Below are positions 1,661-22,705 of a DNA stretch of 25,265 nt, in pieces (the first letter of the stretch is position 1; each line of letters begins with the position of its first letter). The DNA comes from a virus, in the IMG/VR virus record IMGVR_UViG_3300030518_000122, positions 1 through 25,265 of that record; one strand, written 5' to 3'. The position numbers and the translations under genes were made by a program. The notes below the pieces were generated by a model. It worked only from the letters and a program-made list of their open reading frames with translations. It ran no database searches and was not told where the DNA came from.

Positions 1661-2323
1661 TTAGCTACTCCCTATGAACAGGCCAGCAGTCGTGAAGTTA
1701 ATACTTCCGCTAACTTCGCCACTTGAGTTAAAAACGTGGAGCTTGTTCGCAGTCCAAGAAAATCTATAACTTGCCGTGTCGTTTATCCCGGCGTACTGGA
1801 CTCCTTGCAGTCCGATCTGAGCTGATGCAAGATCAAGGCCGCCACTAGGATACGTCCCGTTATAACTAAGACCAAGGATCACCGAAGGCTTTCTGTTTAA
1901 TGGGTTGAAATCGATCACCCAATAGACCGGAGGCGTCGGGCCTGACGGGGCCGCGTTCACCGTTACTACAGTAGTGCCTACGTTGGCGAGTACGAGCGAA
2001 TAACTTCCAGCCGATGGAAATGTGATGTGCCAGAACGCTTGCACCGCTTGTCCGGGCCCCAGCCAGAACGGAACATTGTCTGGCTTCCAGCCCATCCCGA
2101 CAGCTACGTAGCCAGTCAGTCCGTTGGTGTGCGTCGTGTTCTCATCCGATGTCGCGTCTATAGTCGCGCCGCTGCAAGTTAAAGCCGTCGAATATACCGC
2201 TGACGCGCCTGGACCGAACGCGACGTCGAAGGTACAAGGCTCTCCGGCGATAGGGTTTGCAAGCGTCCGTTCCTGGCTCGCCGGGTCCGCTATGAATGAG
2301 TAGGCCAGTACACCAAGTGACAT
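1661..2323 (-). CDS. Beta-rich tail protein of unknown function
   Basis: This 220-residue protein starts at an ATG that overlaps the stop of the large fibre gene (TAATG), so the two are probably translationally coupled. It is Ser/Thr/Gly/Val-rich. A segment around residues 95-125 (FWHITFPSAGSYSLVLANVG) resembles the strand pattern of Ig-like or carbohydrate-binding beta-sandwiches, and a Pro-rich linker (SGPTPPVYW) separates a second beta-rich half. I do not recognise a family. Its position between the fibre and the nozzle-like gene suggests a small fibre-associated or tail-accessory protein. That role is inference. Confidence 0.75.
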   Translation of the reverse strand: MSLGVLAYSFIADPASQERTLANPIAGEPCTFDVAFGPGASAVYSTALTCSGATIDATSDENTTHTNGLTGYVAVGMGWKPDNVPFWLGPGQAVQAFWHITFPSAGSYSLVLANVGTTVVTVNAAPSGPTPPVYWVIDFNPLNRKPSVILGLSYNGTYPSGGLDLASAQIGLQGVQYAGINDTASYRFSWTANKLHVFNSSGEVSGSINFTTAGLFIGSS

Positions 2324-5300
2324 TAGATGCCTATGCCTATCCCGATGTCCAGGTTCCTATTGCCGTCCGCAAGTGCGCCGCCTCCACCACCCGTCGTAGC
2401 GTTGAGCGTGATTGGCGTTGGAGACGTGATCGGAAATACGAAGCTGACAGACACAGTTCGATTTCCGGTTGTTGACGGCGTTAAAGTGAAAGTGTACGAC
2501 GAAGCGCCCACAATCGGGATACTGCTTGCAGATAAAGTGTCTCCGCCTACCGATGAGACCGGATACGCCATACCAGTGTATCTGGCAATCGATGTTGACG
2601 CAGAGGACGGAATCCCGATCGTGTATGTGATTGGATTGCCTACGGTCCCGCTCGAGGAGCCTGTCAGAGTTGCAGCCGGGATCGTGTAATCTAAGCTGTA
2701 CTGCATGTATCCCCGAGACACCTGTACCTGCGGGTTGTCCCCCGAATAGGCCAACGCACCGACTACGCTGTTAGTGTTGTTGAGGAATGGACCTTGAAAA
2801 TACCAGCGGTCTGCAATCCACACGTCCCCAACTGCTGGGATTTGGTAGATTCTCGTGCCCTGTGCGTTATAGACCGTTCCGGTCGGGGTGCCTGCAAATA
2901 GCTTTCCAGCGTAGGCATACGGGCCAGTCACAGAGCTGGAAGTAAATGACTGATTATCCTGGATGATTGCAGTGACTGAGAAGACAGCCCCCCCGTTCAA
3001 ACCCGCGCCCGAACCTGTTATGGGGCCAAGCAGTGCTCCCTGGAGCACCATAGTGTATACCCCTGCGGCGAGCGTGCTTCCCGTCACAAGACAGTTTCCT
3101 GCGCCAATCGAGGAAAGGCCCTGAAGCGCCGTCTGGACTTGTCCAGGGGTTGAATTGTAGGCAAGACCTGAAGTAGTCTGGCCGCCGTACGTAAGGGTAA
3201 ATGTCCCGCTTGTCGCCGTAACTCCAAGGCTCCAACCGTTCACTGGACCATACCCGATTACGTTGCTTTGTTGGATTATAAATTGAGATAATGCAGCATT
3301 CCAATAAGGTCCTCGTTGGCCTTCACCGTTCATAGATGCACCTGTGGCAGTTGCGCTTAGATTGGTAACAGTGCCTGAAAATCCTGTGAACCCTGCGTTG
3401 AGTTGACACAACCATGTTAAGAAACCGTTGGCAGTGAAAAGGGTATAACCGTTCCCAGTATTTGGGTCTATGGATAGGGTGCAATCGTTGTAGGCAGTCG
3501 GCCCACTCGGCAAAGTCAAGTTCATGTTGACCCATGACCATCCCGAGAACGGATTAGAACCTGATGTGGAAGCTACAGAACATTGGCTTGAACTAGATCC
3601 ACCAAGCCCATGCCCCCAAATCACGTAGTTGCTATTAGCCGCATTGTAGAGCATATGAGGCCGCTGTATCTGCGTACACGTTGCGCCGAGATCTGCGCCC
3701 ATGTCTACAAGCAATTCTGTTTCATATTTCCAGTTGTAGGCGTCAACGCTCGAATACATCACCATTCCGTAATTGTTGCCCGTGCCTCCGATCGCGTTGG
3801 TGTCGTAAGCGGTGTTGTAAGGGGTACCGAGCCAAATCAATTTCCCTGTGCGCGTCGTGTCGTCGAACCAACCACCTGCCGCCGCGTCTATCTTGATACC
3901 TCGGTTGATGTCGTACCAGACGCCGGATGGGAGATAAGGCTGTGCCAAAAACTGTGCAGTGTAGAACTTGTCGGTCGTACAGGAATAGTTTGTCTGACAG
4001 GTCGTATCGTACGCGACGGCTTTGACAATTAGAGGAGTTGAGCCCGTAGGCGTGACGGTGAACGGACCCGCATAGAGCGTCTTAGTGTTGTCTGGAGTTG
4101 TCCCGTCTGTCGTGTAGTAGATTGCCGCAGTTGTGGTTAGGCTCGTGATTGTGACGGTCGTACCGGACGGATAGAATCCACCTGTAGGACTGATTACGGG
4201 CATGACAGGGCGGCAGTTGACACCTGGAGTCGGCGCGCCGAATATCTCAAGTTCATTGAGCGTGGGCAACAGGCCGCCACTCGGAGTGGGGTTTGTCGGC
4301 TGGATGATACGCCACGCTGCGTTAGCCGTTGGGGATGTCGGTACGCGTTCCCATAGGATGCCGGGATAGTAATACTGGGTCGCGCCTGTTCCATAACAGA
4401 TCGGCAACGTATCAAAGGCTGTAGGCGAAGGAAACGAACCCGTCGCGCCCGTAGTCGCACCCTGGAATTGGGCATCCCCCAACCATAGGCCAATATCGTA
4501 AACAATACCTGTCAGGTTTTGCCATCCGAACCTATACCTCGTAGGCACTACAGGCTGATCGAACAGGTAGCCGACCCATTTGTTATTCTGAGCCGTACCG
4601 CCGCCGCCTGTTATGCTTGCGGCCCAATAAGTAGAGAGGTTGTCGTCTGCGATATTGGTGGCAGGAAACCCCGCTTGATTATCGGAGTCGATGATATTCC
4701 CGTTGGACGACACAAGGTATTGAACCTCGCCTGTTGGGTTGCCCGTAGTCGTGGTAAGGAGGACGTTCGCGCCGGTGCCTTGGTTGCTGCTAGAATCTGT
4801 TGCGACCACCTCATAGGAATACTCAGTACTCGCAGCAACGCCCGTGTCGAGGTAAGTTAAAGATGTGGAGTTAGGCCCGACATTGGCATACGTCCCTATC
4901 ACCCCGCCAGGGGCAAGCGCACGCCTGAACTGATAGTTGTAGGGGCCAAATCCGCCTGTAGCAGCAGTGGTGACCAGCAGTGCCGATGTACCCGCGTAAT
5001 CGGGTACTGTAGTCGCCTGTGCGGCCACAGTGAGGCCCGTATAAAGTGCGGCCAACTCTACGAACTGTTGCCCTGTCGACGTGGTAGGCGTGCCGCCTGT
5101 TGAGAAAATGCCAACGGACTGAGGCGTATAGTGCGTGTCAGAAGTGCCAGAGAACGAGGTGGAAATTGTATTCGTAGTCGCGATAGTTGCGGTAAACGTG
5201 TGAGACCCGGAACCCGTATACGTCAACGTCAGCAAAAATAAGGTGCCAGCGGTATACGACGGGGGTGCCGTTGCCGAAATAGTATTGGCTGTGTTGGTGG

Positions 5301-5925
5301 ATGATCTGTATTGGAAGTACCATCCGCCTCCCGCACCGGACATGCCGAACACGTATTGATTTCCAGAGGCGTCAGCCATCGATATGGCCGCAAACTCGCC
5401 AGCCACGTTTGACGGCATGTAAACCAGCATCGACGCTTTACACGCGCCACCTGGCACCGTGTTGGAGGAGAGGATCTGCGCGCCGTTTGTTCCGTTAGCG
5501 TTCTTGTATGCTTGCCCGTTCCCGTTGGTTGCTAACGTACCGTTGTATCCAGCCGCGGGAGAACCTACCCACGCCGCGCCTGCTTGTGGGCTAAGAGTTG
5601 TTATCGCAGTACCGGATGCACCCGCAAACGATGGAGAAACCACTTGAGGAGCCGAGGCAAATAGCATGATCTGCGTGTAGACAGTCTGTGCTCCTGTCGT
5701 CGCAAGAATCCACATCGAGTCGCCGGAAGCAGGTGTCGTGACCGTCAGCGTGGCCGCGCCGTTGGCGGTGATGTTGCTCGCCGTGACCGCGCCCGCTCCT
5801 GGGCCTGCCGTCCACACGGTGACGCCCTGAACCCACAGCGTGCCCGTACCGAGGTCGGAGACAGATATATTGTTACCCGACGTGTTTACCGTTAAGTAGC
5901 CAGGAGTGGATACGAATATTGCCAT
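2323..5925 (-). CDS. Multidomain tail fibre/receptor-binding protein with GH43-like propeller
   Basis: A 1,200-residue protein. Approximate order: N-terminal beta region (1-100), LamG-like region (100-300), FN3-like segment (300-395), F5/8-type C-like domain (400-565, with NIADDNLSTYWAAS), chitobiase-C-terminal-like domain (575-662, IYYTTDGTTPDNTKTLYAGP), then a GH43-like five-bladed propeller (665-900 and 985-1080). Propeller signatures are WYDINRGIKID, YSSVDAYNWKYE, RPHMLYNAANSNYVIWGH and VWIADRW. A separate small domain (about 899-986, LTYGGQTTSGLAYNSTPGQV) sits inside the propeller. The C-terminus is low-complexity: a run of glycines and then GIGIGIGI. Such proteins bind or trim surface polysaccharide. 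The segment that usually supplies the GH43 acid (R-E-A-P-like) reads RGPYW, with E868 three residues before R871, so activity is uncertain. It follows the spike-base-like gene. Confidence 0.85.
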   Translation of the reverse strand: MAIFVSTPGYLTVNTSGNNISVSDLGTGTLWVQGVTVWTAGPGAGAVTASNITANGAATLTVTTPASGDSMWILATTGAQTVYTQIMLFASAPQVVSPSFAGASGTAITTLSPQAGAAWVGSPAAGYNGTLATNGNGQAYKNANGTNGAQILSSNTVPGGACKASMLVYMPSNVAGEFAAISMADASGNQYVFGMSGAGGGWYFQYRSSTNTANTISATAPPSYTAGTLFLLTLTYTGSGSHTFTATIATTNTISTSFSGTSDTHYTPQSVGIFSTGGTPTTSTGQQFVELAALYTGLTVAAQATTVPDYAGTSALLVTTAATGGFGPYNYQFRRALAPGGVIGTYANVGPNSTSLTYLDTGVAASTEYSYEVVATDSSSNQGTGANVLLTTTTGNPTGEVQYLVSSNGNIIDSDNQAGFPATNIADDNLSTYWAASITGGGGTAQNNKWVGYLFDQPVVPTRYRFGWQNLTGIVYDIGLWLGDAQFQGATTGATGSFPSPTAFDTLPICYGTGATQYYYPGILWERVPTSPTANAAWRIIQPTNPTPSGGLLPTLNELEIFGAPTPGVNCRPVMPVISPTGGFYPSGTTVTITSLTTTAAIYYTTDGTTPDNTKTLYAGPFTVTPTGSTPLIVKAVAYDTTCQTNYSCTTDKFYTAQFLAQPYLPSGVWYDINRGIKIDAAAGGWFDDTTRTGKLIWLGTPYNTAYDTNAIGGTGNNYGMVMYSSVDAYNWKYETELLVDMGADLGATCTQIQRPHMLYNAANSNYVIWGHGLGGSSSSQCSVASTSGSNPFSGWSWVNMNLTLPSGPTAYNDCTLSIDPNTGNGYTLFTANGFLTWLCQLNAGFTGFSGTVTNLSATATGASMNGEGQRGPYWNAALSQFIIQQSNVIGYGPVNGWSLGVTATSGTFTLTYGGQTTSGLAYNSTPGQVQTALQGLSSIGAGNCLVTGSTLAAGVYTMVLQGALLGPITGSGAGLNGGAVFSVTAIIQDNQSFTSSSVTGPYAYAGKLFAGTPTGTVYNAQGTRIYQIPAVGDVWIADRWYFQGPFLNNTNSVVGALAYSGDNPQVQVSRGYMQYSLDYTIPAATLTGSSSGTVGNPITYTIGIPSSASTSIARYTGMAYPVSSVGGDTLSASSIPIVGASSYTFTLTPSTTGNRTVSVSFVFPITSPTPITLNATTGGGGGALADGNRNLDIGIGIGI

Positions 5926-13215: not shown

Positions 13216-13488
13216 TTATTCGGTCAGGCTCGGCATTCGCTTATCCCATCGTTTGTTGTATTTCTTATCGTCAGCCTTGCGCCTTGCGTCGTTCTCAGCA
13301 TAGCCGCGCTTATTGCCTTCCGAAAGGTGCCTGGGTTCAGTCGTCAGATACGGAACCGTGATCTGCCGGACAGTCTTAACTTCATCGTCGCATGACCAAC
13401 AGAACATGTCCAGATCGCGCTCTTCCATCTTGCGCTGCTCGGAGAACTCCTCGCCGCACTCAGGGCATTTGTATAAATAGTAAGGCAT
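13216..13488 (-). CDS. FmdB-like zinc-ribbon protein
   Basis: A 90-residue protein beginning MPYYLYKCPECGEEF, the hallmark N-terminus of the FmdB/Zn_ribbon_8 family. Two CxxC pairs (C8/C11 and C30/C33) would bind one zinc ion. A highly charged tail follows (NDARRKADDKKYNKRWDKR). The ATG overlaps the stop of the large terminase gene (TGATG). Family members occur in many phage packaging operons but their role is not established. Nucleic-acid or protein binding during packaging or regulation is a guess from the zinc ribbon and basic tail. Confidence 0.85.
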   Translation of the reverse strand: MPYYLYKCPECGEEFSEQRKMEERDLDMFCWSCDDEVKTVRQITVPYLTTEPRHLSEGNKRGYAENDARRKADDKKYNKRWDKRMPSLTE

Positions 13489-15293
13489 CAGGCTGTAATC
13501 AGCTTTCTAATCGGTTTGTCACGTCGGTCATAGGCTGCAAGTTGCGACTCAGGAAAACTGAAGTTATAGACCATCGTGATGACGTATCGCAAACAGTCAA
13601 GGCAGTTGTGAACCAGTATGCCGTTGGCGAAAAACTCAGGCTCTCCGCCAACGGTCAAGTTATACACTGGGGAACTACCGGCTTCGTAAACTCCGACCAC
13701 ATAAACGCGAGCAAGTTTTGTTTTTCGCGTACTTATTGATAACGATATGATGCTATCATTGCACCTCAACGCGTCCAGTCTAACGAAACCTTTGTCGGCA
13801 TGGAAAACAGGATGGCCGCCTGTTCCAGTGATACTGCTTCCATCCGAGAACTTCACAGTATAGACACGCTCCATAGGGCTTGTTTGCCACGATCGCAACA
13901 CAGGACGCCAACCTTGCCGAGTTAAAACTTCGTCTCCTACCTGCACATCTTCAATCGGCTTGTCGCCTCCGCGAACCGTTACTGATGTTCCTGGTATCAG
14001 GCAGTGGTCCTCGCAGCCATCATCGATATCGTCTCCGGTGATATTACTGCCGGTAGTCTTATAAGCCGCGTCGGTCATCTCCGCCAGAAGTGCCGCGCAG
14101 TTTGGCGAGATCGTTAAAACGCCATGCGGGTATTCTTCTTCTCCGTAACCGGGAAGAGGTGCCAGGAACTCCCGCAAGAGCATCCATCCTGGCACTCTGC
14201 CCCGACGTTTGGCCGGAACTGTCACAAACGTCGGTCCGTTAGGCTTAAGCGAAGTCCGCGCCCACGTCTTACGCGTTGTCCGCGTCTGCTCATCATTCTC
14301 GCCAGTGATAAGCTTTCCTGTTGACGGGTCGGCAAATCGCATAGCGATATGACCTGGAATTCTCTCTTCGGTTTCCAATGCAGCCCGCGCCTGATCTGGA
14401 TCAAGTAGCCTATGTCTCTTGAGGTCAGCAAAAACATGGCATCTGTGATGGCCCGTAGACATATCTTGCCAGCAAGCCAACCATACTGTACCAAAAGCCG
14501 ACGGGTTGTACCCCCAGTCAACACCTGCGTACCATCTAGCCCACTGCGGGGGATTAACAAGCCGAACACATCCCGCCGGTATCGCGAAGTAGGAACTTTC
14601 GCCACTGTCCCAATCCCCATCCAGCCATTGCCGCTTCTTCCATTCCGGCAATCCGCGCGTGATGCGCTCGGCGTACTCGGGATCTTCGTTCGTCAGGTAA
14701 AAATTATCGGTTAACTTCGGCTGAAGGACAACAGTTTTCTTGTCCCGCGTCTCGGGCTTTACGAACCTGCGTCTCACCCATCCGTGCCCTATGCCGCCTG
14801 GGTTGCCGAAATAGAACTTCTTGCAGTTCGAGTATCCGCGTACCGATCCGCCGATAAGTTGCGGTATGATCTCCTCGAAGTGCGTGATCTCATCAAAGAT
14901 CGCCGTGAAGTATTCGAGTGACATATGCTTTTCGGCATGTTTCTCGTACTCCGCGAAGGCCAGAAACAGCCTGCTCTCGCCACCTCTCGGGCAACTGATC
15001 CGAAATACTTTGTGCGTCTGGTTGTAGTTGAACGGTATCCGCTGACCGTGGAAGTTAGCAAGCGCCTGACTGATAGGCTGCACATACTGCTTCTCAACGT
15101 CCGAGGATGTCCGCCGAAATATAATATTGTTGGACTGCGGCGCCTGTAAGGCCCTAATGATGCCTATTCGTCCAGCAATCCAAGATTTACCAGGGCCTCG
15201 CGAGCCTACGGCTGCCACCTGATCCACATCAGGATCTTCCATAGCTTCCAGCACGGCCATTTGCCAAGCGTAAGCCGGTATGACAATAGCCAT
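13488..15293 (-). CDS. terL: Large terminase subunit interrupted by an intein
   Basis: A 601-residue precursor. The ATPase domain has Walker A GSRGPGKS (30-37), Walker B IFDEITHF (132-139) and the coupling motif FGNPGG (162-167). The RNase H-like nuclease domain shows YAGVDWGYNP (D259) and MRFADPSTGK (D322). The third nuclease motif, DDGCEDH followed by CLDCLRY, is split by an intein at residues 431-563. Without the intein the protein is 468 residues, a normal TerL length. The enzyme pumps DNA into the procapsid through the portal and cuts concatemers. Its ATG overlaps the stop of the candidate small terminase (TAATG). Splicing is required for an intact nuclease motif. Confidence 0.95.
   Translation of the reverse strand: MAIVIPAYAWQMAVLEAMEDPDVDQVAAVGSRGPGKSWIAGRIGIIRALQAPQSNNIIFRRTSSDVEKQYVQPISQALANFHGQRIPFNYNQTHKVFRISCPRGGESRLFLAFAEYEKHAEKHMSLEYFTAIFDEITHFEEIIPQLIGGSVRGYSNCKKFYFGNPGGIGHGWVRRRFVKPETRDKKTVVLQPKLTDNFYLTNEDPEYAERITRGLPEWKKRQWLDGDWDSGESSYFAIPAGCVRLVNPPQWARWYAGVDWGYNPSAFGTVWLACWQDMSTGHHRCHVFADLKRHRLLDPDQARAALETEERIPGHIAMRFADPSTGKLITGENDEQTRTTRKTWARTSLKPNGPTFVTVPAKRRGRVPGWMLLREFLAPLPGYGEEEYPHGVLTISPNCAALLAEMTDAAYKTTGSNITGDDIDDGCEDHCLIPGTSVTVRGGDKPIEDVQVGDEVLTRQGWRPVLRSWQTSPMERVYTVKFSDGSSITGTGGHPVFHADKGFVRLDALRCNDSIISLSISTRKTKLARVYVVGVYEAGSSPVYNLTVGGEPEFFANGILVHNCLDCLRYVITMVYNFSFPESQLAAYDRRDKPIRKLITA
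13605..14003 (-). other. Mini-intein (133 aa, no endonuclease) in terL
   Basis: The insert starts at Cys1 in CLIPGTSVTVRGG, the usual block A of Hint domains, followed by IEDVQVGDEVLTRQGW. Block B is TGTGGHPVF, with the T-x-x-H pair. Block F/G is VYNLTVGGEPEFFANGILVHN, ending in His-Asn and followed by extein Cys+1, so all four standard splicing residues are present. Only about 30 residues separate the N- and C-terminal Hint halves, with no LAGLIDADG or HNH motif. The exteins join as CEDH-CLDCLRY, a normal terminase sequence. Its 133 residues are near the lower end of natural intein length. Presumably it is cis-splicing and no longer mobile by itself. Confidence 0.95.
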
Positions 15294-15867: not shown

Positions 15868-18800
15868 TTACTTGGCGTTGATTTCGTTAGTCTTCTGCAT
15901 GTAGTAAGAGGATCGAGGGATATAAGTATGGATCTGAGGTTGTCCGCCGACGCGTAACAGGTCATTAAGTATGCGTGGCGTCATGCTTTGAGGTGCTGTC
16001 GAGGTGGCGTTATAGTCTCCGGCCCCCATTGCGTTAGCGAGAGGCGTAACATGCGCGGCCATCGCCGCCATGCGGTGCAGGCCGAATGTTGAGTTCTTCG
16101 GGCTAGCTGTTGGAGATGGCATCAAGTTAAAGCCGCCTTTATCTTCGTCACGAGTAAGTAGCGGCAACTTGCGAGCAAAGAAGTCAGACACGGTAGGCAA
16201 TCCTGGCCCTGAAGTTAAAGGCTCAAGTTGATTATTAACTTCCATAAGCCCTAATCCTTGGGCTGCTGATGCCGCCGACGCGCCTTCTGAAATATCCTTC
16301 ATAAGCGATTGTGCGAGCTGTGCGTTGTAGCCTTCCGTTCTATCGAATGCCTTGAAGAAGTTAAAGTAAATCGGCAGCCCGTTGGCGTCATAGCCGGTCC
16401 GTATGTCGCCAAGTGTGTATCCAGGGACTTCGGTAGGCCACTTGTGATCTTCTGAAGTTGCTTTGAACGCAAGGATTGCCGCGCCTACATATCCAGCGAA
16501 GCGAGCCATGAACTGCGCGGGACCGCCGATGTAGCCTGCGGCCCTGTTGCGCGCGCCGGTCTGATAGAATGTGCCGAAAAGTCCTGTCGGATCTTTGCCG
16601 AGTGCTTTGCTGATCCCCGATTGCAGGTACGGAATGTAGGTGTTCATGTTCCGCATCGCGTAGATTGCTTTGCGGTCAAGTTCCTTGTCGTAATTCGGTG
16701 CATCCGGGTTATCGATCTGAGTACCGGCCCTTGTCGCCATATCGCGGTAGGCGTTATTGATCTCCGTTAGGGCGGTCACGAGCGACCCGCGCTTCGGGTC
16801 ATAGATTATCTGGCCTCCAAGTTTGGTGACTTTCTGTATTGGCGTGTCACCGGGTTTAGATTTCAGATCTATATTGGACGGCAGCGCGCCGTTTTGCGCG
16901 GCCTTTTGCAGAGCCATCTCCTGCTCAGGTAAGGCGTCCCGTCCTATACCTGACATCTTGCCAACTTGTCGGAAGGCTGTAGAGACTGAGTTGGCAAACT
17001 CTAACGCACCGGTTTGCAACTTGCCGGAGGCTGTGTCGGCGTGACCGAACGTAGGTACGATTTTCGAAACGACCGAAGAACCTCTGACGCCGTGGGAGGC
17101 CCCTTCCCCTAGTCCAGCCAAATTCAGACCAATCGCTTTTCCACCTATTGCAGAGGCGACATCCGTAGTACGGGTGCTTGCATTTCGAGTGCTTAGCATC
17201 GGATGAATTTCATTCCACGCGTTCGCCTCCATGACGGCCTTCGCGGGCAAGTCAGGGTACTTCTCTCCGATCCGTTTACCGCCAAGGCCCCAAGTTTCAT
17301 CTTGCAAGTTAAATTCACTGCTTGCGGGATGCCATTGCCCGTTCACGTTAATTTCATTTCGCATTATAGGCTTGCCGCCGCGCGCGTCAGGCACTTCCAC
17401 CACGCGCAAGTTAGGGTTTGGCACGTAGGTTGTTTGACCGGTTGCCGGGTCCACCTGCTCTACATCGGATCGTTGGAGGAGTCCGTCAGCTTCAGTTTGC
17501 CTAACCAATCTCGCAAAGTTAGCCACCCTGTTACCCGCGATGAGTTGGCGGTTGACGACGTCCTTGTAGTCCGTGGCGTAGTTATTGCCGGTTCCGGTGA
17601 ACTCTCGGGCACCGGGAGTGTTGGGTATATCAGCAATGGGGGATCGCATACCCCCTCCACTCGACGCCAGCGACCGTAAAGGCGTTCCATCTTCGTTGAG
17701 CGCGACGGCGGGCTGGTATACACCTGAATACCGTCCTTTGTCACCCAATGCCGATTTGGTCTCAAGATAGTTTTTCTCCATCAGGGGTTCTATGAGTTGC
17801 TTGTGTGCAGCAACCATATCCTGCACCTGCGGATCTTGGAAGAAGGCCCTTGTCATATTCTCCGTGATCGGCCTTTTGGTCACAGGATCGACCATATCCG
17901 TAGGTATATCGGCCTCATTCTTGGTCAGGAAGTTATTGTCAACCTCAGCACGGCGGCTCTTTATCTGGCGGTTCAGGTCGGCGGCTGTTGCTTGTCGCTC
18001 TTTGATAGCAGTTTCCCACTGCCGCGCCCTTAGTGCTCGCTCTTGTGGCGTTAAAGATTGGTCCTTCGCGTCAGCGCGTGCGTTCTTCTGCATGTCCATG
18101 ACATCTTGAACTGTGCGCTTGAACTGCGCTTGATTCGCTGATATTTCACGGTCGGACATCACACGTTGTTGGGCCGCACGATCTGCGGTAAGGAATGTTT
18201 GGAAACGTGCCTGTGCGTTCTCATCTCCATGAGCAAGCACTTTAGGTACTAATTGCCTGGTAAGTTCGTTCGCATGGTTCGCGCTAGCCGAGTATCGAGC
18301 GGCTGCCAGATCGCTTTCAGGCGCAGTTCTCCGCAGGAACGATCCGCCTTCTAACTTCAAGTTACGGATGGCATCGGATATGGGAGCAAGTTTTTCTCTC
18401 GCTACATCCAGGGCGTCACCGATCGCCGCCGGGTTAATTCCTACGTTGAGAGTTGATAGATTCTTCGCAAGTTTAACGTCAGCGTTTGTCAGCCGCTTAC
18501 CCAATGCTGGGTCGCGTGAATTCGCCTTCAGTGTAGCAATATCATCGCGTGATAATTGCAGGTCTACTGTCTTGCGGCCTGATGCTTTACTATCCTGCCA
18601 GTTCTGAAATATATGCTCTTGCAGGTCGCTGTCTTGAGGTAAATAGTTGGCGAGTTTCTGCGCCTGCTCTGTCGTGACAGTCGTCGCTATCTTCCCGTCA
18701 GCCCCTCCACCGGCAGGGATGACGGGGCCTTTTTCGCCTTCTTGCGCTGCGACGGGGTTAGCGGCTGGTTCGGTAATTGCGACGGGGCGTTCAGGAGCGG

Positions 18801-20721
18801 GTTCGTTGTCAACGGATCTTGTGACGGCAGGTTCGGGTCCGCTTGTTGGTTCGGTTGCGATTCCCTGCGTGCTTGCCTGATTGCCATCGCTCGGCCTACT
18901 AGCTGGTTCACCACTTCCCCGCGAACTTGGGGAGATCCCGTTTCCATCTTCTATTCCCTTTATCTGGTTAGTGGCGAGCGCCATCTCCTGCGGGGTTGCG
19001 TCGGTTCCGCTCGCGGCCTGCATAACGTCGGAGTGTATTTCTGCTGTATGCGGGTCTGAGAAGTCTATAGTATATTGCGGATTGGCAACGGTTGGAACTG
19101 CCGCAGGCTCTTCGACCGGACGCGTCGGCGCAGCTCCGAAGTCAGGTTGAACCTTCGGTCCTTCCGGCGTGAGATTTAATTCTGCTTGTCGATTAACTTG
19201 CGTTAAATCGGGTCCAGATGCTACGTTAAGAGCATCTGGGTTTGTCGGTGCGCGCCCTATATCGGGAAGGCTACTGGCAGGAGGGCCTTCTATCGGCACT
19301 GCCTTGCTGCCCTTGACTGGGATTCTTCGCCCGTCAAGGTCGAAGTATTGGTTCCTGCCAGTAGATTGGTCTAACATAACAGGCGTATCGCCTATCATGT
19401 GCGTAGCTTTGAACCCTGTGTCGAGGTCAGGCTGCTGTCCCTGGAAACCCGGCGGCAGGTCTATCAGATGATTGTTTGGAGCGACTTGCGGCAATTCACC
19501 TGACATAGGAACGGGGACAGTTTCACCCGGAAGTGATATAGGTTGTTGACCGTACACAGTCGGCGGTGTCGAGACGACAGGTGATGGAAGCCTCTTGAAG
19601 CCTGTATATGGAGGAACTTCGGGTTCTGTATACGGTTCATACGACGACGGATAGCCATTCTGTGATGTTCTTTGAGGCGGCGCGGGAGCATATTCTGTCG
19701 GCAGTTCGGCAGGTATTTGCGGGAAGTTAGGAGGCGGTGACCCCGGCGGCAACTGCGGCTGCTGAGGCGCATATTGCGGATTGGCGTACCGTGCATTAGC
19801 ACCCGAGAAATCATCAACTCCAAGAATATCGGGGTTCATGAGTGTTGGAGTGCGGTTGCGGTAGGCGTCCATGATGCCCGCGCCATGCAAGGCGGCAGGA
19901 ATACCAAGTCCCATCGCTGCGTTAAAACCCAACGCGCCGTAGTACTGGCCTGGGTTAGAGTGCAACAGGTCCGTGTTCGCCGCGGCCTGCGCGGTGCCTA
20001 CTGCGCCCTGCGCCAAGAACGCTTTACCTAGCAGGTTGCTGATCCCTGCCACTTCTCCAGCCGCCGGAAGTGCGGCAAGCATTGCCAGTCCTACAGGAGA
20101 AGCCATAGGCAACGCGTGTTGCGCGACCCCTTGCCATATCGGGTTGTTGACAATGCTTCCCGGCATGGACGGATTACCCGACGTGACGATATCCTGGGCG
20201 GCTTGCGGATATTTCCACAGTTGGCTGAACGGTCCGCCGATGTAATCATCGAGACCTTCAGGCTGTTTACCTTCCTGCGATCGGTTAATTTCAGCTTGAC
20301 GCGCTGCCACCTGCTGACGCAGGATGGTGGGCGAAGGCGTGTTAGGTGACAACTGCATAGCACGCGTAGCGCTGCCTACGGGATCAAACATGCCGAGTTG
20401 CTGCGATCGATCGAGAGCCGAAGCTGCCTGTGATGCTTGGTCGGCCTGCTGCTGACCGTATACCTGCGTCTGGCCGGTTCCCATCGCCCGTATTTGAGGC
20501 GCGAGGTTGACGTTTCCAGTCACAGGGTCGGTAACTGTCGGGACCGGGCCACCGGGAGCGTTTGCAGCCGCCGCCGACAACGCGGCATTTGTGTGCTGCT
20601 GACCTATATCATGGCTCGCCTGCGCAAAAACGGTATCCAGGTCACTCTCGGAAGGCTGGGAGCCGTCCGGGGAGTTTATACCGAAAGTGACGCCGTTTCG
20701 ATTGTAGTATTGGGTAGGCAT
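15868..20721 (-). CDS. Giant internal virion (ejection-type) protein
   Basis: About 1,617 residues from ATG 20721 (MPTQYYNRNGVTFG), 4 bases after the upstream stop. An in-frame GTG at 20754 would add 11 residues inside the upstream gene and is less likely. From residue numbers counted from that GTG: Ala/Gln-rich N-terminus; hydrophobic stretches near 215-295 (VGLAMLAALPAAGEVAG, AAMGLGIPAALHGAGIM); a long Pro-rich, probably disordered tract 325-690; then helical charged regions from 700. A C-terminal part (1360-1530) has an AMRNMNTYIPYLQSGISKAL segment and a hydrophobic GYVGAAILAF stretch, as in large phage internal proteins and polyvalent proteins. Together with the SLT gene upstream it would enter the host envelope during DNA delivery. 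No enzyme motif is recognised. Confidence 0.8.
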   Translation of the reverse strand: MPTQYYNRNGVTFGINSPDGSQPSESDLDTVFAQASHDIGQQHTNAALSAAAANAPGGPVPTVTDPVTGNVNLAPQIRAMGTGQTQVYGQQQADQASQAASALDRSQQLGMFDPVGSATRAMQLSPNTPSPTILRQQVAARQAEINRSQEGKQPEGLDDYIGGPFSQLWKYPQAAQDIVTSGNPSMPGSIVNNPIWQGVAQHALPMASPVGLAMLAALPAAGEVAGISNLLGKAFLAQGAVGTAQAAANTDLLHSNPGQYYGALGFNAAMGLGIPAALHGAGIMDAYRNRTPTLMNPDILGVDDFSGANARYANPQYAPQQPQLPPGSPPPNFPQIPAELPTEYAPAPPQRTSQNGYPSSYEPYTEPEVPPYTGFKRLPSPVVSTPPTVYGQQPISLPGETVPVPMSGELPQVAPNNHLIDLPPGFQGQQPDLDTGFKATHMIGDTPVMLDQSTGRNQYFDLDGRRIPVKGSKAVPIEGPPASSLPDIGRAPTNPDALNVASGPDLTQVNRQAELNLTPEGPKVQPDFGAAPTRPVEEPAAVPTVANPQYTIDFSDPHTAEIHSDVMQAASGTDATPQEMALATNQIKGIEDGNGISPSSRGSGEPASRPSDGNQASTQGIATEPTSGPEPAVTRSVDNEPAPERPVAITEPAANPVAAQEGEKGPVIPAGGGADGKIATTVTTEQAQKLANYLPQDSDLQEHIFQNWQDSKASGRKTVDLQLSRDDIATLKANSRDPALGKRLTNADVKLAKNLSTLNVGINPAAIGDALDVAREKLAPISDAIRNLKLEGGSFLRRTAPESDLAAARYSASANHANELTRQLVPKVLAHGDENAQARFQTFLTADRAAQQRVMSDREISANQAQFKRTVQDVMDMQKNARADAKDQSLTPQERALRARQWETAIKERQATAADLNRQIKSRRAEVDNNFLTKNEADIPTDMVDPVTKRPITENMTRAFFQDPQVQDMVAAHKQLIEPLMEKNYLETKSALGDKGRYSGVYQPAVALNEDGTPLRSLASSGGGMRSPIADIPNTPGAREFTGTGNNYATDYKDVVNRQLIAGNRVANFARLVRQTEADGLLQRSDVEQVDPATGQTTYVPNPNLRVVEVPDARGGKPIMRNEINVNGQWHPASSEFNLQDETWGLGGKRIGEKYPDLPAKAVMEANAWNEIHPMLSTRNASTRTTDVASAIGGKAIGLNLAGLGEGASHGVRGSSVVSKIVPTFGHADTASGKLQTGALEFANSVSTAFRQVGKMSGIGRDALPEQEMALQKAAQNGALPSNIDLKSKPGDTPIQKVTKLGGQIIYDPKRGSLVTALTEINNAYRDMATRAGTQIDNPDAPNYDKELDRKAIYAMRNMNTYIPYLQSGISKALGKDPTGLFGTFYQTGARNRAAGYIGGPAQFMARFAGYVGAAILAFKATSEDHKWPTEVPGYTLGDIRTGYDANGLPIYFNFFKAFDRTEGYNAQLAQSLMKDISEGASAASAAQGLGLMEVNNQLEPLTSGPGLPTVSDFFARKLPLLTRDEDKGGFNLMPSPTASPKNSTFGLHRMAAMAAHVTPLANAMGAGDYNATSTAPQSMTPRILNDLLRVGGQPQIHTYIPRSSYYMQKTNEINAK

Positions 20722-20725
20722 AAGG

Positions 20726-22705
20726 TTACTGTCTAGCGTACACAGGTGGCACACCGGCAGCCGGAGGAGATACTAGGCGGTATTTGCTTGCCGTAGAACT
20801 TGCGCCCTGACCCGGTATCCGGATTGGTGCGCCCGGTCGAGTTGCGCTATCTCCCGGAGGTGCGATTTGACCAAGACCACCAGGAGTAGGAGTTGCCTGC
20901 GCTGTTTGCCGTTGTCCGAGTTGCGCTTGCAGGTCATCAGCATGGGCTTTTGCTTGCGAAGCAAGTTGGGATAAAAGCATCGAGGTGCTATCGAGTGGCT
21001 TGCCTGGTACTCCGTTATGCGTCGTGAAGTACTTCGTATAGGCATTGAACGCGTTATCGGAGTTCTTGCGGGCCTCTCTAACTTGAGCTGCGAGATCGCG
21101 CATTGCCGGAGAATTGTTCTGGTTCTGAGTACTTGGTCCCAAGTTAGAAGCCGCGCTTGACAGGTTAGTCAGATCGAATGGCGGTAAATGGCCTTGGCCC
21201 GACGCGGCAGATGTCGCGTCAAGTTGCGCGTATTGCATCTGAAGCGAAGCGAGCTTAGATGGATCGATCGTGCTCTTCGCCGCCTGCTGAATTTGCATTC
21301 CGAGAGCCTTCAGATCGATCTTCTGTTGGCCCTGCTGATCCATATTATTATAATGTTGGTCACGGCCTTGTATACCTTGGCCGTAATAGGCGGCACGTTC
21401 GATTGAAGCGAGCGGTCCCATGACCGCGCCGGACTTCCCAACCTCAGCGCCGTACTGCGCCAAAGCGTTCTGTGCAAGTTCAGGAACGGTGCTGTTGACC
21501 GTGTTGGCCGCGTTCATATTTCCAAGGGCTACGTTCTGTCCCTGCTGCAATCCGCCGAGAGCCTGTGTTGCCGGTATCTGCGCGTTAACTTGGGCGGAGC
21601 CTGCGACGGCAGGGTTCAGTAAGTTAGCGTAGTTTTCCTGCGCTTGCTGGTATATCGGAGCCTGCGCCAGGCGCATCTTCTCATTCAGTTCTTGCAGGTT
21701 AACGTCCTCATTGTGGTTTCGCAACCATTCCTGATACGCTTCCACATCCTGCTGATGCTGGAACGGATATTGCTGCATTGCATCTTGATACTGAGTGTTC
21801 GCTACACCTAACGCCGACTGGTACGGGACCGCGTTAACCGCGCCTGCCGCTTTCGGAACGGCAAGTCCGGCGATATTGCCGAGGATTTGCGCGAGCGGAT
21901 TCGCGTGAGGCGCAGGACGGGTCGGAACATCGGTATCATCAGAGCTATAGCCAGGAGGCTGAATAATGGGCCGTGCTTGAAAGTCGGCGGCGCTCGGGGG
22001 AGCCACCGCGCCTCTCAGGAAACCGAGGCTTGCATTCTGTCCGGCCTGATTTCCAAGCAGTGACGGCATAGCCTGATCCGCTGGCGTCACCATATTGTTT
22101 GCGTAGGTCCGCTGAGCGGCAGCGAACTGCCCGAGGGAGGAATTCGGGTCGATTTGGAGCGGATGGCTGACCGCAGAACCGTCCGGGTTGTATCCGGTCT
22201 GCATTGCCTGTTGTGTCGGCGGCAGTTGCGCGGACGCAATGCGGTTCAGGATATGGTTTATCAGGTCGCTTTGCTGATCGATTGGCCTGTTCGTGAGGTA
22301 ATTATTCTGCCCAGGCCCAAGCTGAAGCGGGTTGTAGACGGTCGAATTCGCCATGTTCTTAGATCCTAACGCCTGCATCGCCTGCGGCAGATATTGCTTG
22401 TATGAGTTGTTCGGTTGAGTGTATGTGGACCACGGCGTGAAGTCGGTCCAGTTCTTTGATATAGCCCGCGCCGCCGCCATGTTGTTGTTCGGGTCGAACA
22501 TGGCGGAATTGTCGTACTCAGGGTGAGCGAGGCCATTGATTTGCAGTAGTCCACGCGATCTGTCCACGTTAGACTGCGTGAAGTTGTTCGGATCGCCTCC
22601 ACTTTCGGCCATCGCTATAGACGCAATGGTGGGCAACACGCTAGGCGGAGCACCGTTATTTTGTGCGGCCTGTGCTATTTGTTGATAGCTATAGCTATTT
22701 GCCAT
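20726..22705 (-). CDS. Internal virion protein with N-terminal transglycosylase (SLT/lysozyme-like) domain
   Basis: A 659-residue protein with AGGAGG 5 bases before the ATG. Residues about 1-115 form a lysozyme-like domain. Catalytic Glu34 lies in SIAMAESGGDPNNF; then come RSRGLLQIN (50-57), FDPNNNMAAARAISK (70-84) and FTPWSTY (89-95), all in the order of SLT-type lytic transglycosylases. The rest is Gln/Asn/Ala-rich with a helical charged part (QQDVEAYQEWLRNHNEDVNL) and a Pro/Gly/Thr-rich C-terminus. There is no signal peptide. Virion-carried domains of this type make a local hole in peptidoglycan during DNA entry, as does T7 gp16. It is followed at once by the giant ejection-type protein. 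Confidence 0.85.
   Translation of the reverse strand: MANSYSYQQIAQAAQNNGAPPSVLPTIASIAMAESGGDPNNFTQSNVDRSRGLLQINGLAHPEYDNSAMFDPNNNMAAARAISKNWTDFTPWSTYTQPNNSYKQYLPQAMQALGSKNMANSTVYNPLQLGPGQNNYLTNRPIDQQSDLINHILNRIASAQLPPTQQAMQTGYNPDGSAVSHPLQIDPNSSLGQFAAAQRTYANNMVTPADQAMPSLLGNQAGQNASLGFLRGAVAPPSAADFQARPIIQPPGYSSDDTDVPTRPAPHANPLAQILGNIAGLAVPKAAGAVNAVPYQSALGVANTQYQDAMQQYPFQHQQDVEAYQEWLRNHNEDVNLQELNEKMRLAQAPIYQQAQENYANLLNPAVAGSAQVNAQIPATQALGGLQQGQNVALGNMNAANTVNSTVPELAQNALAQYGAEVGKSGAVMGPLASIERAAYYGQGIQGRDQHYNNMDQQGQQKIDLKALGMQIQQAAKSTIDPSKLASLQMQYAQLDATSAASGQGHLPPFDLTNLSSAASNLGPSTQNQNNSPAMRDLAAQVREARKNSDNAFNAYTKYFTTHNGVPGKPLDSTSMLLSQLASQAKAHADDLQAQLGQRQTAQATPTPGGLGQIAPPGDSATRPGAPIRIPGQGASSTASKYRLVSPPAAGVPPVYARQ

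Follow-up and report, generated by a model that had tools for sequence, protein, structure and literature searches.

A terminase mini-intein bearing the apparent remnant of an endonuclease gene overprinted in another frame

The large terminase subunit (TerL) gene in the stretch of viral DNA analysed here (a virus fragment of 25,265 bases, hereafter the window) contains a 133-residue mini-intein that is predicted to splice and that appears to descend from a class of phage inteins with an HNH endonuclease gene read in frame +2, which is the -1 frame relative to the intein frame. In the window, this nested gene would have been deleted down to a short fossil, and we place the probability of this account as a whole at about 0.88. 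More generally, it is highly probable that phage terminases worldwide host inteins with an endonuclease overprinted in the -1/+2 frame, which home as a unit, recently so in Acinetobacter phage Highwayman, and decay by in-frame deletion to fossil-bearing mini-inteins like that of the window. Inteins are usually described as a splicing domain and an endonuclease domain that are translated in one frame. A search of the open-access literature returned no description of a true intein whose endonuclease is encoded in a different frame, and this widespread intein type is apparently undescribed.

The mini-intein and its site in TerL

The features of the terL gene discussed below are as follows, in window coordinates.

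15293-13488, minus strand: TerL precursor ORF, 601 codons (Pfam Terminase_6N; phrog_2/phrog_979, terminase large subunit)
15180-15206, minus strand: Walker A of TerL
14508-14525, minus strand: TerL nuclease motif I, GVDWGY
15293-14004, minus strand: N-extein, whose last residues (...GCEDH) are at 14004-14018
14003-13605, minus strand: class-1 mini-intein (Hint splicing domain), 133 residues
13986-14003, minus strand: start of block A, Cys1-LIPGT
13812-13823, minus strand: block B, TGGH (T61, H64)
13678-13758, minus strand: HNH fossil, 27 codons in frame +2, matched by the HMM of free-standing HNH proteins
13605-13667, minus strand: blocks F/G, VYNLTVGGEPEFFANGILV-H132-N133
13604-13488, minus strand: C-extein with stop, beginning with Cys+1 (LDCLRY follows, the remainder of nuclease motif III)

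The intein corresponds to TerL residues 431-563, and its removal is predicted to leave a ligated protein of 468 residues. A first-pass annotation, made from the sequence alone, had placed it at exactly these coordinates and with these lengths, and had described it as an endonuclease-free true mini-intein that divides the TerL nuclease motif. This description is well supported. The full set of catalytic residues (Cys1, T61-x-x-H64, H132-N133 and Cys+1) is present, as had been claimed, and Cys1, T61 and H64 are invariant in alignments. The Pfam Intein_splicing profile matches at 41.6 bits against a cut-off of 35.8, and NCBIfam intein_Cterm also exceeds its cut-off. The AlphaFold2 model adopts a Hint fold (pLDDT 97.0, pTM 0.89), for which Foldseek returns the Mtu RecA mini-intein (3ifj, TM 0.88), gp41-1 and NpuDnaB, with TM values up to 0.89, while the top matches of a PDB sequence search are the Spl DnaX mini-intein and gp41-1. 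The assignment of an intein in the window TerL far exceeds chance, and since every sequence feature of a mini-intein is in place we class the element as one and predict that it splices. It contains no in-frame homing endonuclease domain. BIL domains are found in variable secreted proteins and not in conserved essential enzymes, whereas this element lies in TerL and is followed by the standard C-extein Cys+1. Its small size, which had been thought remarkable, proves to be ordinary, as relatives measure 127, 128, 130, 131, 132 and 134 residues and gp41-1 measures 128.

The insertion point (DH/CLDCLRY, the slash marking the insertion) falls close to where the TerL nuclease domain ends, and it is also where the Pfam Terminase_3C (RNase H-like) match stops in the relatives L004 and L006. 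A PDB sequence search with the ligated TerL gave no match, and the residues of motif III are therefore assigned from the Pfam and PHROG profiles and from general knowledge of these enzymes. Among relatives from IMG/VR, phages and genomes, at least three neighbouring intein positions occur in this motif (DH/C, DHx/C and DA/C), and with these adjacent insertion points motif III looks like a hot spot for inteins within the nuclease domain. Some relatives instead have their inteins near the Walker B region of TerL.

The first-pass annotation had missed that the site is shared with named phages and with prophages. The same kind of intein occupies this position of the nuclease motif, or one adjacent to it, in Tetrasphaera phage TJE1, archaeal virus vir335, Rhodobacteraceae phage LS06-2018-MD07 and Acinetobacter phage Highwayman, whose records are annotated only as 'terminase large subunit' or 'large terminase'. 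Unlike the window, TJE1, LS06-2018-MD07 and Highwayman retain the +2 HNH gene; the intein of vir335 is a mini-intein. Bacterial genome records with this intein include Frankia sp. AgB32, Glycomyces amatae and Bacteroides mediterraneensis, and we take these carriers to be prophages.

As regards the surrounding DNA, a 40.7-kb IMG/VR contig (IMGVR_UViG_3300029922_000147) is identical to the window across 11,800 bases, with zero mismatches. Between terL and the portal gene lies a 90-residue ORF (13216-13488, minus strand) that begins with MPYYLYKCPECGEEFS and resembles a small zinc-ribbon protein. A 1200-residue ORF (2323-5925, minus strand) contains a chitobiase/Fn3-associated domain (Pfam CHB_HEX_C_1) and weakly matches a PHROG major tail protein, and a 1628-residue ORF (15868-20754, minus strand) matches nothing in Pfam, NCBIfam or PHROGs.

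An HNH reading frame overlapping the intein in larger relatives

Larger relatives of the window intein carry roughly 150-210 extra codons at the canonical endonuclease position, a site that is highly conserved among inteins with endonucleases (PMC6801210). Read in the intein frame, this extra stretch matches nothing, and in the L008 intein it is modelled by AlphaFold as a disordered segment (residues 91-303, pLDDT about 33) flanked by two confident Hint halves. Read in frame +2, it encodes an HNH_3 and zinc-finger endonuclease, with Pfam HNH_3 scores of 54 bits in L008 and 72 bits in L050 (cut-off 24.8). Three free-standing phage HNH proteins, none of them overlapping an intein, were the sole source of an HMM that matched 65 of 84 inteins in a six-frame scan; all 65 matches fell in frame +2 and none in the other five. 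The HNH frame is the better conserved of the two (identity 0.327 versus 0.185 for the intein frame), and this holds for each pair, a comparison biased toward the HNH frame because the alignment was built in it. In the close pair L018/L023, nucleotide changes number 15, 14 and 36 at HNH codon positions 1, 2 and 3, respectively.

In the phages BP10, CL2 and PAE1, free-standing homologues adjoin terL or terS, and genes of this kind are a plausible source of the gene nested in the intein. Free-standing homologues immediately beside terL or terS in phages have the following coordinates.

L166:4031-4672: free-standing HNH homologue next to terL/terS
L167:1967-2590: free-standing HNH homologue next to terL/terS
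L168:2265-2882: free-standing HNH homologue next to terL/terS

One TerL intein (L045:641-1597) has a +2 nuclease with a different N-terminal nuclease region (YGARGITVCDRW...NCRWAT) and the same C-terminal zinc fingers, which suggests that nuclease modules have been exchanged within the overprinted region.

How the +2 frame is translated can be approached from its 5' end. An ATG lies no more than 12 codons past the upstream +2 stop in 36 of 59 loci, compared with 8 of 59 in the third frame, and the start of the ORF coincides with the N-terminus of the free-standing homologues. A Shine-Dalgarno match of at least 5 is found in 18 of the 59 loci against about 9% of random positions, a modest enrichment of signals that are weak on average. 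An alternative is that the endonuclease is produced by programmed -1 frameshifting from the N-terminal half of the intein, given that +2 is the -1 frame and that a slippery heptamer stands in register at 13 of the 59 loci. We regard this as unlikely, as most loci lack such a heptamer and both the position of the ATG and the agreement with the homologue N-terminus speak against it. The clustering of start codons and the small number of slippery heptamers point to internal initiation as the likelier mode.

The intein frame remains open across the HNH gene. Synonymous resampling of the HNH codons predicts 3.1 intein-frame stops per locus, and none is observed at any of 39 distinct loci (39/39), although the loci are related and the stop-codon probabilities are accordingly not independent; the third frame, used as a control, contains 12.9 stops versus 12.5 expected. 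Further HNH-bearing loci inspected outside these 39 are likewise open through block F/G in the intein frame. The stop-free frame at every HNH-bearing locus inspected led us to reject, as scarcely credible, the reading of the HNH region as an RNA intron lying within the gene for the intein, with the intein frame there never translated: phage introns commonly hold HNH genes, and a self-splicing intron is known in terL of phage ICP1 (PMC10448857), but an excised intron would need no open host frame.

The fossil in the window and probable decay to mini-inteins

The window intein itself matches the HMM of free-standing HNH proteins in frame +2 (E 1.9e-5), at profile positions 175-201 of 207 and at the canonical endonuclease insertion point of the intein. 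There, frame +2 reads HH-IVINKYAKNKTCSRLCGRSLRSR followed by a stop, which corresponds to the C-terminal zinc-finger tail of the nested HNH protein, and the tail reads ...INKYAKNKTCSRLCGRSLRSR-stop. Longer or different remnants occur in L019 (E 1e-19), L087 (E 4e-7) and L145 (E 5e-5), in each case only in frame +2. With the same HMM, the mini-inteins L009, L010, L012, L013 and L082 show no significant HNH remnant.

The nearest relative, L008, has its intein at the same site, is identical to the window at 84 of 133 residues of the splicing blocks (63%) and carries about 210 extra codons at the endonuclease position. The exteins of the two are 61% identical over 163 residues. This similar divergence of intein and extein fits an intein that was already present in the common ancestor. 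In a tree of the inteins, built on 129 columns and resolving few of the deep forks, mini-inteins and HNH-bearing inteins are interspersed, and same-site pairs of a mini-intein and an HNH-bearing intein are joined as sisters with support of 93 (window and L008), 99 (L004 and L050) and 90 (L012 and L081).

The +2 tail in the window and the graded remnants elsewhere indicate, on sequence grounds, that the window intein arose by deletion from the class with an overprinted endonuclease, a relic status with a still readable fossil that the first-pass annotation had overlooked. It is very improbable that this is an ordinary mini-intein that never had the endonuclease and that resembles it in frame +2 by chance. 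The fossil is short, at 27 codons, and five mini-inteins lack a significant remnant; however, the HMM derives from proteins that overlap no intein, the match has the expected frame and corresponds to the expected end of the protein, a complete gene is present in the sister L008, and L019, L087 and L145 hold fossils of graded extent. As a deletion derivative, the window intein together with these three relatives forms a graded fossil series that would show how mini-inteins originate.

The first-pass annotation had also raised the possibility that splicing, and with it DNA packaging, is switched by redox state or some other condition, an idea that is not borne out by comparison. Cys1, Cys+1 and a Cys at -4 are all present in the window, but the Cys at -4 is private to it among 14 inteins whose N-extein ends in His, being absent from all 13 others, the nearest relative included. 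With no further sign of control, such a switch is most improbable.

Mobility, proposed course of events and comparison with known systems

Empty sites in phage Acba_21 and in WCHABP12 show that intein-free alleles of the family exist; none was found in the close lineage of the window itself. Highwayman carries the intein with its +2 HNH gene, and the corresponding site in Acba_21 is empty. The flanks of the two are approximately 99.5% identical, and the Highwayman insert amounts to exactly 327 codons. All 15 of the TerL differences between them lie within -163 to +12 nt of the site (Fisher p 3e-14), and only one of the 42 matching Acinetobacter phage records spans the full-length gene. At the +1 codon, Leu in Acba_21 is replaced in Highwayman by Cys, the Cys+1 that is required for splicing. 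This tract is the trace to be expected of break repair with co-conversion, and we read it as a putative signature of homing. Highwayman and BP10 had been considered as an intein-plus/minus pair and were set aside in favour of Acba_21, as their TerL proteins are only distantly related.

A further pair consists of L004, with a mini-intein of 132 residues, and L050, with a 345-residue intein that includes the +2 HNH gene, at the same terL site with flanks 99.4-99.6% identical. Simple deletion was rejected for this pair, because the two differ by replacement of the middle part, where the mini-intein has an unrelated stretch in place of the one in L050. An exchange, and not a plain deletion, thus occurred.

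The following course of events is proposed. In the ancestral class, a gene for an HNH/zinc-finger endonuclease, presumably a homing enzyme, occupies the canonical insertion point in the +2 (-1) frame. A ribosome translating TerL would cross this gene in the intein frame and add a disordered loop that connects the halves of the splicing domain, while a second, internal initiation would yield the endonuclease. The endonuclease would then cut intein-free terL genes, and repair of the break would carry the intein, the overlapping HNH gene and neighbouring codons (that for the +1 Cys among them) into the cut gene. In the lineage of the window, an in-frame deletion would have removed nearly all of the HNH gene and left approximately its last 27 codons as the +2 fossil. 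The 133-residue intein would still have to splice from TerL to restore the CEDH-CLDCLRY nuclease motif, and its splicing domain would persist because terL is essential.

On this account, splicing and homing would be carried out by separate proteins from overlapping genes. Searches with proteins of the intein frame are blind to an overprinted endonuclease, which, if this holds, would account for some of the long intein inserts in which no endonuclease can be recognised; some inteins filed as 'endonuclease-free' may thus be misfiled. With its known empty site, the Highwayman/Acba_21 pair offers a direct test of homing.

The nearest report to this family in the open-access literature is that of the ShiLan element and the Pacc40 insertion, in which an out-of-frame HNH gene lies in a phage methylase without a splicing domain (Arsenault et al., 2025, PMC11855218). 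Like the larger intein relatives, these have an HNH/zinc-finger ORF that is out of frame with a phage host gene, whose own frame stays open, show no obvious ribosome-binding site and are patchily distributed; in the window, this arrangement of an out-of-frame HNH ORF in an open insertion survives only as the fossil. Unlike the inteins described here, whose HNH ORF lies inside a complete Hint domain, the ShiLan and Pacc40 insertions lack a splicing domain and are believed to remain part of the methylase. Inteins have also been described in the TerL of mycobacteriophages, at sites a-g, all of which are in the ATPase domain (Kelley et al., 2016, PMC5050341), and active endonucleases and LAGLIDADG motifs were shown for TerL inteins there (PMC5050341). 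These are inserts in a phage large terminase, as in the window; in contrast, the window site lies in the nuclease domain, past nuclease motif I and within the DHxxDxLRY motif, and the endonuclease of its family is an out-of-frame HNH protein. Finally, the window intein shares the Hint fold, Cys1, TxxH, His-Asn, Cys+1 and a similar length with the gp41-1, Spl DnaX, NpuDnaB and Mtu RecA mini-inteins, and differs from them in its site in TerL nuclease motif III and in its frame +2 fossil of an overprinted HNH gene.
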